From: an uncultured Eudoraea sp.
Lineage (GTDB): Bacteria; Bacteroidota; Bacteroidia; Flavobacteriales; Flavobacteriaceae
Reading direction: 5' to 3'
DNA: 46,731 nt
Assembly: GCA_947258555.1 (NCBI GenBank)
Contig: CAMYJF010000011.1
Span: 1-46,731 of the forward strand
This document shows positions 4,025 to 9,307 of the stretch, piece after piece. Made by a program: the position numbers and the translations under genes. The notes under the pieces are model-generated. The model searched no databases, was not told the origin of the DNA, and was given only the letters and a program-made list of their open reading frames with translations. Every line of letters starts with the position of its first letter. Within the stretch, counting starts at the first letter, position 1.

Positions 4025-4657
4025 ATGGTGACTTTTCTCAAACAATTGTGTCTTATACTATTAAACAAGCAGACCAAGAACACATTGGGAAGGGAAGATC
4101 CTTATAAAGATCTAACGGATCTGGAGCTCGTTGAGCGGATCACGAAGGATAATAATACGATGCTTTTTGGCGTACTCTATGACCGGTACGTCAAAATGGT
4201 CTATAATAAATGCTATGGCTTTGCACGTTCAGAAGATGAAGCTGAAGATCTGACCCAGGATGTGTTCTTACTGCTTTTTGTAAAATTGAAAAGTTTTCAA
4301 GGCAGGTCTAAATTTTCCAGTTGGTTGTATTCGTTCACCTATAATTTTTGTGTGAATTATGTCAACAGGAATAAGGAACGAAAGATGAGCGATAAATCGA
4401 GTCCGATCGAGAAATCTGAACACAAGGTAACAGAGGACATATCGGATGATTCGCTTTTTGATATGCGTTCCGAAAAATTGAAACGTGCACTTGATCTGAT
4501 AGATCCGGATGATAAAAAGATCCTTTTGCTAAAGTACCAGGATGATGTTTCCATAAAAGAACTGCAAATCTTGCTGGAAGTAGGCGAGAGTGCAGTGAAA
4601 ATGAGATTAAAACGGGCGAAATCCCGGATATTAGAAACCTATAATACCTTAGAATAG
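4025..4657 (+). CDS. RNA polymerase ECF sigma factor
   Basis: 210 residues, the usual size for a sigma-70 family ECF factor. Region 2 is visible near residues 45-110 (FGVLYDRYVKMVYNKCYGFA, EDEAEDLTQDVFLLLF, FSSWLYSFTYNFCVNYVNR). Region 4 is near 150-205 (LDLIDPDDKKILLLKYQDDV, then SIKELQILLEVGESAVKMRL with KRAK after it). It directs core RNA polymerase to stress or envelope promoters; the regulon is unknown. The stop is one nucleotide before the ATG of the 61-residue protein, and an MscS-type channel follows. No classical anti-sigma gene is adjacent. The first 20 residues are not family-typical, so an internal start is possible. Confidence 0.93.
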   Translation: MVTFLKQLCLILLNKQTKNTLGREDPYKDLTDLELVERITKDNNTMLFGVLYDRYVKMVYNKCYGFARSEDEAEDLTQDVFLLLFVKLKSFQGRSKFSSWLYSFTYNFCVNYVNRNKERKMSDKSSPIEKSEHKVTEDISDDSLFDMRSEKLKRALDLIDPDDKKILLLKYQDDVSIKELQILLEVGESAVKMRLKRAKSRILETYNTLE

Positions 4658-4875: not shown

Positions 4876-5703
4876 ATGGACACGATCAATGAATGGAAAA
4901 ATCTGACCTTTGATACCCTGTCAAAAATCATCCAGGATATAGCAGGCGCATTACCTGGCTTATTAGGGGCGATTATTGTACTCGCCTTTGGATGGTTCTT
5001 CAATAAGATCATTCGCTATATATTAAAAAAAGTCTTTAAGCTCATAAAGATCGATGCAGCTTCTGATAAGATAAATGAAGCACAGATCTTTGGTGATAGC
5101 AAGGTAAAGATAGATATAGCCGTGATCTTGCTCAGCTTTGTGAAATGGCTCCTATGGCTGGTCTTTATTATTGTTGCTGCTGATATTATGCAACTTTCCG
5201 TGATCTCCGAGGAGATCGCCAACTTGTTGCGATATCTTCCTATACTGCTAAGTGCCATGGTGATCTTTTTGATCGGACTCTATGCAGCCCGACTCATAAA
5301 GAAGGCATTGATCACTGTATTTGACTCAATGGGTGTTGGTGGATCTAAGATCATCAGCAATATTGTTTTCTACATCATTGCCATTTTTGTGACCATCACG
5401 GCGCTAAACCAGGCCGGGATAGATACTACGATCATAACCAGCAATATCACGATGATCATGGGCGCATTTTTACTGGCAGCTGCCCTTGGGTTCGGACTCG
5501 GATCACGTGATGTCATCGGGGATGTGCTGCGTACATTCTATACCCGCAAGCAATATGCTGTAGGCGATGTGATCAGTATAGGTAAGTTGAAAGGGACCAT
5601 TGAAAGTATTGATAACATCAGTCTTACCCTCTCCACGGAAGAAGGCAAAATTGTAGTCCCGATTAAAACAGTGGTCGAAAATAAAGTAAAGATCCACAAC
5701 TAA
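4876..5703 (+). CDS. Small-conductance mechanosensitive ion channel (MscS family)
   Basis: 275 residues, inner membrane. Membrane segments are visible near 22-50 (LPGLLGAIIVLAFGWFFNKI), 78-103, 112-135 and 155-178. A pore-lining Gly/Ala-rich helix follows near 192-215 (MIMGAFLLAAALGFGLGSRD). The segment after it (GDVLRTFYTRKQYAVGDVIS) and the short beta domain (IGKLKGTIESIDNISLTLST) are characteristic of the MscS fold. The protein ends right after the beta domain, so it lacks the larger cytoplasmic cage of E. coli MscS. The family releases solutes on hypo-osmotic shock. It lies 31 nt after the 61-residue gene and is probably in the sigma operon, which suggests osmotic or envelope-stress control. 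Confidence 0.92.
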   Translation: MDTINEWKNLTFDTLSKIIQDIAGALPGLLGAIIVLAFGWFFNKIIRYILKKVFKLIKIDAASDKINEAQIFGDSKVKIDIAVILLSFVKWLLWLVFIIVAADIMQLSVISEEIANLLRYLPILLSAMVIFLIGLYAARLIKKALITVFDSMGVGGSKIISNIVFYIIAIFVTITALNQAGIDTTIITSNITMIMGAFLLAAALGFGLGSRDVIGDVLRTFYTRKQYAVGDVISIGKLKGTIESIDNISLTLSTEEGKIVVPIKTVVENKVKIHN

Positions 5704-5772
5704 CACACTCTCTAGGGCATTACATTTTCATAAGAATTTGTGTACTTTTACCGCTCAAAATGTAACGTATAC

Positions 5773-6321
5773 ATGAGCGCTAAAAAAAGCAAAGTCCAGG
5801 AAACAATCGATGAAAAAATATTAGAGGAACGGAAGGTTTTTCTATGGGGTATGGTCGATGATGATTCTGCCAAACATGTGATAGACAGATTGTTATATCT
5901 GGATATGTTGAATAACAAAGAGATCCAGTTTTATATAAACAGCCCGGGAGGTTATGTCACTTCCGGTTTTGCTATATATGATACTATTAAAAGTTTAAAG
6001 AGCCCCGTCTCAACCATTTGTTCAGGCTTGGCAGCTTCTATGGGGTCTATTCTATTATCTGTAGGTAAAAAAGGCCGGCGCTTTATCCAACCTCATGCGC
6101 GTGTTATGATCCATCAACCCAGTGGGGGTGCAAGGGGCCAGGCTTCTAATATTGAGATCCAGGCAAAAGAGATCTTGCTTACCAAAGAATTGGGTGCTCA
6201 GATCCTCGCGGATAACTGCGGTCAGACCTTTGAAAAGATCATGAAAGACTTCAATCGTGATTATTGGATGGGCGCAGAAGAATCTATCGAATACGGCATT
6301 GTCGATGCTGTAATGGAATAA
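5773..6321 (+). CDS. clpP: ATP-dependent Clp protease proteolytic subunit, orphan paralogue
   Basis: 182 residues from ATG at 5773. The frame is open further upstream (to 5740), but the added residues do not fit the family and ClpP proteins begin near this point. The serine-protease triad is complete: Ser in SGLAASMGS, His in VMIHQPSGG, Asp in FNRDYWMGAEE. The substrate-strand motif FYINSPGGYVTSGFAIYDT is also present. It forms the barrel peptidase that degrades proteins unfolded by ClpX or ClpA-type ATPases. No clpX or tig is adjacent, unlike the usual tig-clpP-clpX arrangement, so this is probably a second ClpP. It lies downstream of the sigma/MscS genes but 69 nt away. Confidence 0.93.
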   Translation: MSAKKSKVQETIDEKILEERKVFLWGMVDDDSAKHVIDRLLYLDMLNNKEIQFYINSPGGYVTSGFAIYDTIKSLKSPVSTICSGLAASMGSILLSVGKKGRRFIQPHARVMIHQPSGGARGQASNIEIQAKEILLTKELGAQILADNCGQTFEKIMKDFNRDYWMGAEESIEYGIVDAVME

Positions 6322-6360: not shown

Positions 6361-7152
6361 TCAGATCTTGGAGAAGAGTTTGTGCATTTTTTGCTGCTCT
6401 TCTTCTGCCAATACCGGATCTACCAGGATACGGCCGCTATGCTCATCTGTAATGATCTTTTTGCGGGAGGCGATCTCTACCTGCACCTGAGGTGGGATGG
6501 TAAAGAAGGAACCACCGGAAGCGCCACGCTCGATCGGAACTACGGCTAATCCATTTTTTACATTGCCACGGATACGTTTGTAAGCAGTGATCAGACGATC
6601 TTCGATCTGCTTTTCATATTGCTTGGACTTAGTCAGAAGGGCTTTTTCTTCTTTGTCCGTTTCGGCAAGAATGGCATCTAACTCACTTTTCTTATGCTTT
6701 AAATGGGCATCGCGTTCAGAGAGTCGTTCTTTGGTTTCACTGACGACTTCTTTCTTTTGATCGATCTGAACTTTAAATTCTTTTATATTCTTCTCAGCCA
6801 ATTGAATTTCCAATTCCTGGTATTCCACTTCTTTGGCTAAAGAATTGAATTCGCGACTGTTGCGTACATTTTTTTGTTGTTCGCTGTACTTCTTGATCGC
6901 TGCTTTCGCTTCTTCGATAAGATTTTTCTTTGCACTGATCTCATAGTTGATGGTTTCCACATCAGTTTTGAGTTTATCTATACGGGTTTTCAAACCTGTT
7001 ACTTCATCTTCAAGATCCTGTACTTCCAAGGGCAATTCCCCACGCACATTGCGAATTTCATCCACCCGGGAATCAATCAACTGCAAGTCGTATAAAGCTC
7101 TTAGCTTGTCTTCAACAGTAACTTCTTTCTTCGTCGCTTTCTTAGTCGCCAT
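6361..7152 (-). CDS. Coiled-coil protein of the C4 zinc-ribbon (DUF164-type) family, cysteine-less
   Basis: 263 residues: a Lys/Thr-rich N-terminus, a long antiparallel coiled coil (about 15-185), and a C-terminal domain with family landmarks YKRIRGNVKNGLAVVPIERG, FFTIPPQVQVEIASRKKII and HSGRILVDP. In most relatives this last domain is a zinc ribbon with two CxxC-type pairs. Here the sites read GASGGS and DEHSG, so all four cysteines are replaced and zinc binding should be lost. The family is often found beside NIF3 genes; here NIF3 ends 2 nt upstream. The exact role is not settled. Family call is confident, function open. Confidence 0.88.
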   Translation of the reverse strand: MATKKATKKEVTVEDKLRALYDLQLIDSRVDEIRNVRGELPLEVQDLEDEVTGLKTRIDKLKTDVETINYEISAKKNLIEEAKAAIKKYSEQQKNVRNSREFNSLAKEVEYQELEIQLAEKNIKEFKVQIDQKKEVVSETKERLSERDAHLKHKKSELDAILAETDKEEKALLTKSKQYEKQIEDRLITAYKRIRGNVKNGLAVVPIERGASGGSFFTIPPQVQVEIASRKKIITDEHSGRILVDPVLAEEEQQKMHKLFSKI

Positions 7153-7154
7153 AA

Positions 7155-8249
7155 TTAATAGTAATAGACAGGATTTGTAATACTCTCCGATATCAGGAGG
7201 GCAAAATTAGCAATTTTTTTCCGAAGATAATCATGTATTAAGGCTTTAGTAAACTGCTCGGATTCATAATGTCCAACATCGAGCAGTAATATTTGGCCTT
7301 CAGCCTCATAGAATTGATGGTATTTCAGGTCTGCGGTAATAAATGCATCTGCCTCCTGAGCCTTGGCTGAGGCAATGGCAAAAGCCCCACTTCCTCCAAG
7401 AACTGCCACCTTTTTTATGCGCTTACCCAATAAGCTGCTATGTCGAATTCCGCCTGTCTTTAATTTTGTCTTAACGAGATCCAGGAATTTTGTCTCACTC
7501 AGGGCTTCTTTAAATTCACCAATCATGCCCATTCCCAGGTGCTTGTTTGTATTCTCCATTTCAAAGATCTCATAAGCAACTTCTTCGTATGGATGATGGT
7601 CGTACAGGGCAGCGATCACGGATCCCTTCTTATGGGTTGGAAGGACGACTTGAATCTGTGTTTCTTCCTCCGTATGCAATTCTCCCTTAGTGCCTAAAGT
7701 GGGTTTGGCATTTTCAAGAGGTTTAAAACTTCCTGTTCCCTGTAATTGAAAACTACAATGACTATAATCTCCAATATGTCCGGCGCCTGCGTCAAAGAGC
7801 GCTTGCAGTAGGTCGGGGGCTTTGTCTTTAGGGACATAGGTAGTAAGCTTTCTAAGGCCAGAAGCTTTCGGGATCAAAATTTTAGGGTCTAAAATGCCTA
7901 ATACATCACACAGTTTTGCGTTTACGCCATTAGGGGAATTATCCAGGGCAGTATGCAGTGCGTATATGGCGATGTCATTTTTTATGGCCTTCATAACCAC
8001 TCGCTCCACATATGTACTGCCGGTTAGTGTCTTTAATCCGCCAAAAATTATCGGATGAAAACTGATGATCAGATTGCATTTCTTATCTATAGCCTCGTCC
8101 ACAACACTTTCCAGGGTATCCAAGGTTACGAGTATGCCGTTTACTTGCTGAGTCGGGTCGCCAACCAGCAGTCCCACATTGTCAAAGTCCTCTGCAGTGC
8201 TGAGCGGTGCTAAAGTTTCTAATATTTCAGCAATTTCCCTGATGATCAT
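7155..8249 (-). CDS. NIF3-like dinuclear metal centre protein (YqfO type)
   Basis: 364 residues from ATG at 8249. The frame extends to 8273, but a -7 box at 8271-8278 overlaps those codons, so the inner start (MIIREIAEILETLAPLSTAE) is preferred. N-terminal NIF3 motifs include AEDFDNVGLLVGDP and LIISFHPIIFGGLKTL. A central insertion of the PII/CutA-like type (about 125-225, with LRKLTTYVPKDKAPDLLQAL and PYEEVAYEI) marks the longer YqfO-like subtype. The C-terminal NIF3 part has KKVAVLGGSGAFAI, ADAFITADLKYHQF and LLDVGHYESEQF, which supply metal-binding His, Asp and Glu. Family members form hexameric toroids; one proposed role is GTP cyclohydrolase 1-like, but function remains debated. It is paired with the coiled-coil gene downstream and is divergent from lpxK. 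Confidence 0.92.
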   Translation of the reverse strand: MIIREIAEILETLAPLSTAEDFDNVGLLVGDPTQQVNGILVTLDTLESVVDEAIDKKCNLIISFHPIIFGGLKTLTGSTYVERVVMKAIKNDIAIYALHTALDNSPNGVNAKLCDVLGILDPKILIPKASGLRKLTTYVPKDKAPDLLQALFDAGAGHIGDYSHCSFQLQGTGSFKPLENAKPTLGTKGELHTEEETQIQVVLPTHKKGSVIAALYDHHPYEEVAYEIFEMENTNKHLGMGMIGEFKEALSETKFLDLVKTKLKTGGIRHSSLLGKRIKKVAVLGGSGAFAIASAKAQEADAFITADLKYHQFYEAEGQILLLDVGHYESEQFTKALIHDYLRKKIANFALLISESITNPVYYY

Positions 8250-8270
8250 TTTGGCTTGAATTAAGGTCAT

Positions 8271-8278
8271 CAAAGATA
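8271..8278 (-). promoter_or_regulatory. -7 box for the NIF3/coiled-coil operon
   Basis: TATCTTTG on the minus strand matches TAnnTTTG and lies 21 nt upstream of the preferred ATG at 8249. No TTG is found at the expected -33 distance. The box argues against the longer upstream start at 8270-8273. Confidence 0.5.
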
Positions 8279-8299: not shown

Positions 8300-9307
8300 A
8301 TGCGACTCCTCAGAATTTTAGCCTTTCCAATTGCTCTTCTTTATGGTATGGCCATTTATATCAGAAATGCCCTCTACGACTGGGGATTGTTTAGGAGTGC
8401 GGAATTTCAAACCAAAACTGTCAGTGTTGGAAATCTTTCTGTTGGGGGCACCGGGAAGACACCCATGGTCGAATGGTTGATCACACATATGCCGGCTTCA
8501 TACAAACTGTCTGTTGTTACAAGGGGATATGGGCGTAAATCTTCAGTGCCCATATTGGCTGATCCGGAGCATACAAGTGAAGAGATCGGGGATGAACCTA
8601 AGCAGCTTATTACCAGGTTCCCTGACCTCTGCCTGCGTGTTGATGGTGATAGGAGGAGGGCTATTCAATGGCTGGAAGAACACGTAAAGCCGGATATTAT
8701 CCTCTTAGATGATGCACATCAGCATAGGCGAATAAGGCCGAGTTTAGGGGTTTTATTGACTACTTATGATAATTTGTATACGGAAGACTATTTCCTGCCA
8801 ACTGGCAGCCTGCGGGATAGCCGAAGAGAAGCGCGGAGGGCTGCATGTATTGTTGTGACTAAATGTCCGCCGGAGATGACGTTACAAAAGCAGGAAGAAG
8901 TGCTTAGAAAATTAAATCCGGGAAAAGGGCAGGAAGTATTCTTCGCTACGCTACAGTATGATGAGGTTTTACATGGAGCTAAACCCAAGAGTATTCATGA
9001 ACTCAGGGATAGGCCTTTCACTTTGGTTACAGGAATTGCCCAACCAAAACCCTTGGTTGGTTTTTTAAGATCGAAAGGTCTAGAATTCAAACATCTGAAA
9101 TATTCAGATCACCATCAATTCTCAGAAAAGGAAGTCGAAAAATTTAAAAAGATAGATGAGTTGCTCCTTACCGAAAAGGACTATGCCCGGGTGGGACATT
9201 TATTGCCCAATGCAAGTTATATCAGAATAGCACACAAGTTTTTAGAAGAGGGAGGATCCAGGTTTCTGGATCTATTGGGAATTAAGAAACAGAACGCTTC
9301 AATTTAG
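8300..9307 (+). CDS. lpxK: Tetraacyldisaccharide 4'-kinase
   Basis: 335 residues. It phosphorylates the 4' position of the lipid A disaccharide precursor at the inner-membrane face. An N-terminal hydrophobic helix (RILAFPIALLYGMAIYI) anchors it. The Walker A motif is in SVGNLSVGGTGKTPMVEWL. Further family motifs are VVTRGYGRK, EIGDEPKQLITRFPD, IILLDDAHQHRRI (DDxxQHR) and the late SDHHQFSEKEVEKFK. Length and motifs are complete. The last 26 nt overlap the 3' end of the convergent histidine kinase gene (9282-9307). Its presence means the organism makes lipid A. Confidence 0.95.
   Translation: MRLLRILAFPIALLYGMAIYIRNALYDWGLFRSAEFQTKTVSVGNLSVGGTGKTPMVEWLITHMPASYKLSVVTRGYGRKSSVPILADPEHTSEEIGDEPKQLITRFPDLCLRVDGDRRRAIQWLEEHVKPDIILLDDAHQHRRIRPSLGVLLTTYDNLYTEDYFLPTGSLRDSRREARRAACIVVTKCPPEMTLQKQEEVLRKLNPGKGQEVFFATLQYDEVLHGAKPKSIHELRDRPFTLVTGIAQPKPLVGFLRSKGLEFKHLKYSDHHQFSEKEVEKFKKIDELLLTEKDYARVGHLLPNASYIRIAHKFLEEGGSRFLDLLGIKKQNASI

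Follow-up and report, generated by a model that had tools for sequence, protein, structure and literature searches.

Zinc-less DUF164 proteins in the Flavobacteriales: apparent repeated loss of a metal site and a possible link to RpoN

DUF164 (COG1579) proteins join a coiled-coil hairpin to a ribbon domain, and the best described members carry a zinc site made of four cysteines (C4). In Helicobacter pylori, FlgZ (HP0958, structure 3na7), which acts in a flagellar context and is encoded next to an upstream NIF3 gene, prevents turnover of the sigma factor RpoN (sigma-54); the NIF3 protein HP0959 is not required, and the zinc site is needed for RpoN accumulation (PMC3372290). Chlamydia CT398/CdsZ (4ilo), which has its own C4 site and a connection with type III secretion, reportedly needs only its coiled coil to bind RpoN, while the ribbon takes part in other contacts (PMC5947703). 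The relative considered here is encoded in a window of 46,731 nucleotides, namely the whole stretch analysed (contig CAMYJF010000011.1 of assembly GCA_947258555.1, from an uncultured Eudoraea sp. of the Flavobacteriaceae), at positions 6,361 to 7,152. An earlier note had proposed that this protein lost all four zinc cysteines. Alignment with 4ilo and 3na7 bears this out: the ligand columns read S212, S215, D236 and S239.

As such, the loss of zinc cysteines in an otherwise intact domain is not new, having been in print since 2011: Pereira et al. gave the motif SXXS-X20-DXXS for the DUF164 proteins of Flavobacteria, and described the NIF3 neighbour, also for Bacteroidetes (PMC3372290). No later work on zinc-less DUF164 forms was recognised among the matches listed from the open-licence literature. 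Two observations are added here, the recurrence of Asp-x-x-Ser (D-x-x-S) as an outcome and the order in which genes are retained in shrinking genomes; in the parts of the 2011 paper drawn upon, D-x-x-S is not said to recur beyond Flavobacteria and no order of retention is given for endosymbionts (PMC3372290).

Membership of the family is clear. The PF02591 (Zn_ribbon_9) profile covers residues 212-243 with 33.1 bits against a cut-off of 29.1 (profile positions 2-33 of 33), and the strings picked out in the earlier note (NGLAVVPIERG, FTIPPQ and SGRILVDP as framework, GASGGS and DEHSG at the former ligands) are all in place. The CXXC-X18-26-CXXC zinc motif is absent from the protein, as it must be in a chain with no cysteine, but this excludes only the zinc-binding form and not membership, since 43 of 349 Pfam members are without at least one of the cysteines (PMC3372290). 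CT398 is the closest solved relative (phmmer E 4.3e-12, nearly full length), and HP0958 is matched at 6.4e-7, also over nearly the full length. The coiled-coil model CT398_CC (PF24481) covers residues 23-197 at a sub-threshold score (21.0 against 27), and the CdsZ equivalog NF047363 (NCBIfam) gives 65.5 bits, far under its cut-off of 275.

The predicted fold points the same way. For an alignment of the window protein with 38 relatives devoid of some or all ligands, AlphaFold returned a mean predicted local distance difference test score (pLDDT) of 94.0 and a predicted template modelling score (pTM) of 0.70; the corresponding values for a C4 relative, aligned with 39 further C4 rows, were 90.9 and 0.62, and its elements were the same. 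The window model has one helix at residues 13-94, a turn, a second helix at 99-182 and then the ribbon domain, an arrangement shared with 4ilo, 3na7, 5y05 and 5y06, and residues 201-250, across the ribbon, score 91-96 in each block of ten. Superposed on CT398, it gives Z 17.5 and a root-mean-square deviation of 3.1 over 235 residues, ribbon included; Z is 15.9-17.2 for HP0958 and MSMEG_4306 (for HP0958, VIA Z 17.2 over 236 residues), and Foldseek retrieves HP0958 at 2.8e-9 and CT398 at 5.1e-9. The whole fold thus appears to be kept without the ligands, although AlphaFold may simply reproduce the fold of the family, which makes the models a support and not a proof. Conservation can be read alongside. 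With the ligands left out, the ribbons of 59 zinc-less genera in the order show a mean pairwise identity of 0.81, as against 0.60 for their coils; for 74 C4 genera drawn from the order and the class, the two values are 0.72 and 0.50. To judge from these identities, the zinc-less ribbon is still under strong constraint, stronger than that on the coil. Zinc ribbons that function after losing their cysteines are familiar from the zinc-independent (C-minus) ribosomal proteins L31, L33 and L36, often paralogues swapped in under zinc shortage. Unlike these, DUF164 is present as a single copy in 40 of 40 close genomes, the window's own included.

The gene is nearly universal: it was found in 198/198 genomes in the phylum search, 196/197 in the class search and 235/246 in the order search. 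The genomes without a match (11 in the order search, one in the class search) are mostly fragmented assemblies, and a profile re-search of 8 of these 12 again gave no match. Among viral contigs, 53 stretches fit the peptide pattern and none encodes a relative, in a search that reaches close relatives only. Ligand columns were scored in 307 genomes (loci L001-L340, with loci of the same genome merged), chosen as best matches and family picks and not at random. In the window's order the zinc site is lost in 95 of 109 genomes and intact in the other 14. Ligand 1 of the 95 is Ser in 72, Pro in 18, Ala in 3, and Thr and Ile in one each; ligand 2 is always Ser; ligand 3 is Asp in 94 and Ser in one; ligand 4 is Ser in 94 and Cys in one. 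A single locus, L023, accounts for both exceptions at the last two positions, its four ligand columns reading TSSC, with one cysteine left. The loss is not universal across the order, since ten other named Flavobacteriales loci, Crocinitomicaceae included, are C4. One C4 record, L217, titled Chryseobacterium gleum (a metagenome-assembled genome), has a ribbon nearly identical to that of L051 (family f20) and is probably misnamed; in the tree discussed below, L051 itself groups with a row from the Crocinitomicaceae.

How often was the site lost? A quick tree of 119 hand-chosen rows, built with the two knuckles left out and containing long rows and many open forks, requires six switches between the C4 state and the others, five of them forced by starred branches. 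The count is approximate, as the zinc-less clade includes the C4 row L226, and L048 (f21) is placed, with weak support, among C4 rows. Of the zinc-less loci that carry a name, L212 (Flavobacteriaceae) and L194 (Flavobacteriales) stand within or beside the main zinc-less clade, which points to the Flavobacteriales as the window's order. Outside that clade, incomplete sites are seen in f57 (which adjoins it), f21, f22, f34/f36, f45 and a group in which Ala or Val and a deletion precede C-x-x-T/S. In this last form, loss is partial: one of the four cysteines remains, the first knuckle being two residues shorter and without Cys and the second reading C-x-x-T or C-x-x-S (loci L078-L083, L085-L087, L089 and L090, of families f26, f48, f38, f42, f52, f44, f31 and f50). 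D-x-x-S in the second knuckle recurs beyond the main clade in four lineages, f21, f22 (after A-x-x-C), and f34/f36 and f45 (both after a first knuckle that has lost two residues). A single clade of all 43 rows with Asp at ligand 3, together with the TSSC row, is rejected by the approximately unbiased test (p-AU 1.5e-5), in a setting where the quick tree contains some long rows and the group was picked by its trait after the tree had been seen. That the direction is one of loss is judged from HP0958 and CT398, both of which have the C4 site. Going from Cys (TGY) to Asp (GAY) takes two base changes, so that Asp is not the nearest mutational step. On this sequence evidence the zinc site seems to have been lost several times, with the same replacement recurring.

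We favour, with a probability of about 0.6, the reading that the window protein is an adaptor of the FlgZ/CdsZ type, predicted to be zinc-independent, which serves RpoN via its coiled coil and whose fold is held metal-free by D-x-x-S. The four cysteines would have been replaced in a progenitor shared by most Flavobacteriales, the second knuckle becoming Asp-x-x-Ser while the first drifted to S/P/A-x-x-S, and the ribbon would have stayed folded without metal. From what is generally known of zinc knuckles, the Asp carboxylate probably assumes the backbone hydrogen bonds once made by a Cys thiolate. The coiled-coil hairpin would grip a partner, most likely RpoN, and the ribbon would make a second, metal-independent contact. 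We infer both the absence of bound zinc and the identity of the partner in this lineage. Zinc independence is the best account of a protein that has no cysteine, no compensating histidine at position 238 and a strongly constrained ribbon; to that extent the earlier note's view that the domain works without zinc stands, while its picture of one event in one lineage gives way to several apparent losses. The adaptor role builds on the stabilisation of RpoN by FlgZ in H. pylori and on the reported binding of RpoN by the CT398 coil alone. RpoN is encoded in the window's own genome (PF04552, 1.4e-51) and in 79 of 80 panel genomes, but its co-occurrence with DUF164 across the phylum says little, as nearly all genomes carry both.

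More telling is f16, an endosymbiont family of the window's order (n=68) whose genomes are for the most part tiny, ranging from 173 kb (one contig, G636) up to 1.3 Mb, and in which RpoN was sought as the PF04552 domain alone. DUF164 was found in 60 of these genomes, RpoN in 55 and NIF3 in 53, and the three form nested sets: neither RpoN nor NIF3 is found without DUF164, which accompanies RpoN in 55/55. Two genomes (G644, G645) have DUF164 and RpoN with no NIF3 match; five (G607, G630, G634, G635, G636) have DUF164 with neither of the others detected, the protein being very divergent in G634-G636; and in G632, G633 and G637-G642 none of the three was found. Ligand columns, counted separately from L001-L340 for 44 of the 60 genomes with a DUF164 match, hold none of the four cysteines in any genome and Asp at ligand 3 in 44/44; the divergent G634-G636 read YDDYT here, with Asp still at ligand 3. 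In the wider set, a NIF3 gene of the same orientation lies no more than 400 bases away in 118/122 zinc-less and 179/185 C4 genomes, some of the misses being loci that end short; it is located elsewhere in G041, G134 and G072, and G163 gave no NIF3 match. The earlier note's description of NIF3 as the usual partner is thus right as to neighbourhood, and the pair adjoins in the window with a gap of two bases, but the protein persists where NIF3 is undetected; NIF3 appears, from gene content, to be dispensable for DUF164 retention.

Several points weigh against a role in serving RpoN without zinc. In H. pylori, replacing one ribbon cysteine (C202S or C223S) leaves much less RpoN and abolishes motility, and C223S lowers FlgZ as well (PMC3372290), so that there the RpoN role needs the cysteines. 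Genomes G607, G630 and G634-636, with the protein but with RpoN undetected, suggest another job, either in addition or in those genomes, and Actinobacteria keep DUF164 without RpoN (Pereira et al., PMC3372290). The f16 genomes share ancestry, which reduces the 55/55 to few independent events, and in one of these 55 (G643) the DUF164 frame is split. Stops interrupt that frame (L374, 1979-3046) next to a lysine-rich stretch; the genome has both RpoN and NIF3, and the break may reflect misassembled A-runs or the onset of decay. As for G607, it has one strong Sigma54_activat match (2.9e-61, open frame of 281 amino acids), so that RpoN could be missing from an assembly of 8 contigs, and only a strong match is counted because PF00158 matches 14/14 control genomes (PF04552 in 4); G630, the second genome of the same genus (20 contigs), is also without an RpoN match.

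The alternative that survives best, which we nevertheless regard as less likely, is that the zinc-less form acquired a new job unrelated to RpoN, for example contact with RNA or the ribosome through its ribbon, the joint retention with RpoN being coincidental. The five f16 genomes with DUF164 and no RpoN match fit such a job, as do G607 and G630, where the hairpin tip is deleted and the ribbon intact; the harm done to the RpoN role by Cys to Ser changes in H. pylori points in the same direction, and a new zinc-free function was proposed by Pereira et al. themselves (PMC3372290). Yet RpoN occurs without DUF164 in none of the f16 genomes, and the published table lists Bacteroidetes with DUF164 and RpoN, with DUF164 alone or with neither, never with RpoN alone (PMC3372290). 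Joint survival is the more notable since RpoN, retained in three flavobacterial endosymbionts, was called unusual for insect endosymbionts (PMC3971599). Coming back to the RpoN adaptor, one may tentatively go further, with slightly less than even confidence: zinc loss may follow a recurrent, directed route to Asp-x-x-Ser as a hydrogen-bonded stand-in for the zinc knuckle, and the sigma-54 partnership may be kept so firmly that the protein outlasts first NIF3 and finally RpoN in shrinking endosymbionts.

The deleted tip invites a comment of its own. In the genomes of about 300 kb where it is missing (L340 of G607, 1504-2268, and L370 of G630), DUF164 is 15 residues short at this place (91-105) and the ribbon is intact. 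The tip was considered as the RpoN site and dropped, as it tracks neither partner cleanly: G607 and G630 match neither RpoN nor NIF3, but the tip is partly lost in the RpoN-bearing G644 and kept in G645, of the same partner state, while G643, with both partners, has the damaged split copy.

It is improbable that Asp236, Ser, His238, His257 or a dimer still hold a metal in place of the cysteines. Asp236 is nearly invariant and His238 common, as this idea would have it, but the protein has no thiol left to stand in for the ligands. Its four histidines lie at 150, 153, 238 and 257, and that at 238 is no compensation: His is frequent there in C4 members too (CEHCGR), and the zinc-less L030, L047, L120 and L340 have Tyr, Asn or Thr at this place. 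Besides, in the order ligand 1 varies among S/P/A/T/I over a constant Ser at ligand 2, and in other lineages the first knuckle has lost two residues. A sequencing error or a decaying pseudogene, for which the window protein offers no support, is refuted by relatives, with full-length open frames in 2/2 genomes of the same genus, the same residues order-wide and a ribbon more conserved than the coil.

A family that goes by the name of zinc ribbon, and that in H. pylori cannot do without its zinc cysteines, has, as it seems, repeatedly dropped its metal site, yet is near-universal in the phylum. Pairs of C4 and zinc-less relatives offer a natural before-and-after comparison for the role of zinc, and the reduced endosymbiont genomes provide a testable hint as to the most important partner. 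The features of the locus are collected in Table 1.

Table 1. Features of the DUF164 locus, in window coordinates.
Feature	Positions	Strand	Basis
DUF164/COG1579 (FlgZ/CdsZ-type) protein, 263 amino acids from ATG, 0 Cys	6361..7152	minus	Open reading frame (ORF), PF02591, PDB relatives
C-terminal ribbon domain, residues 200-246, fold predicted kept without ligands	6415..6555	minus	PF02591 match and pLDDT
Former first knuckle, residues 212-215, S-G-G-S instead of C-x-x-C	6508..6519	minus	Ligand codons TCC, TCC
Former second knuckle, residues 236-239, D-E-H-S instead of C-x-x-C	6436..6447	minus	Ligand codons GAT, AGC
Coiled-coil hairpin tip, residues 91-105 (EQQKNVRNSREFNSL), well conserved coil patch	6838..6882	minus	Model: turn between helices
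NIF3/DUF34 gene, directly upstream of DUF164	7155..8273	minus	PF01784, 2.5e-75

On the other side of DUF164, an extracytoplasmic function (ECF)-type sigma factor (4025-4657), a mechanosensitive channel protein (4876-5703) and ClpP (5740-6321), all on the plus strand, are convergent with it. Upstream, the lipid A kinase LpxK (8300-9307, plus) is divergent from NIF3, with 26 bases between them. An LpxK-like ORF is found in the fetched flanks, of unequal lengths, of 40/54 genomes of the same family, 15/52 of the same order, 32/79 of the same class, 20/80 named and 0/39 other phylum genomes. With H. pylori flgZ flanked by kdtA (PMC3372290), lipid A/Kdo genes recur near the NIF3-DUF164 pair.
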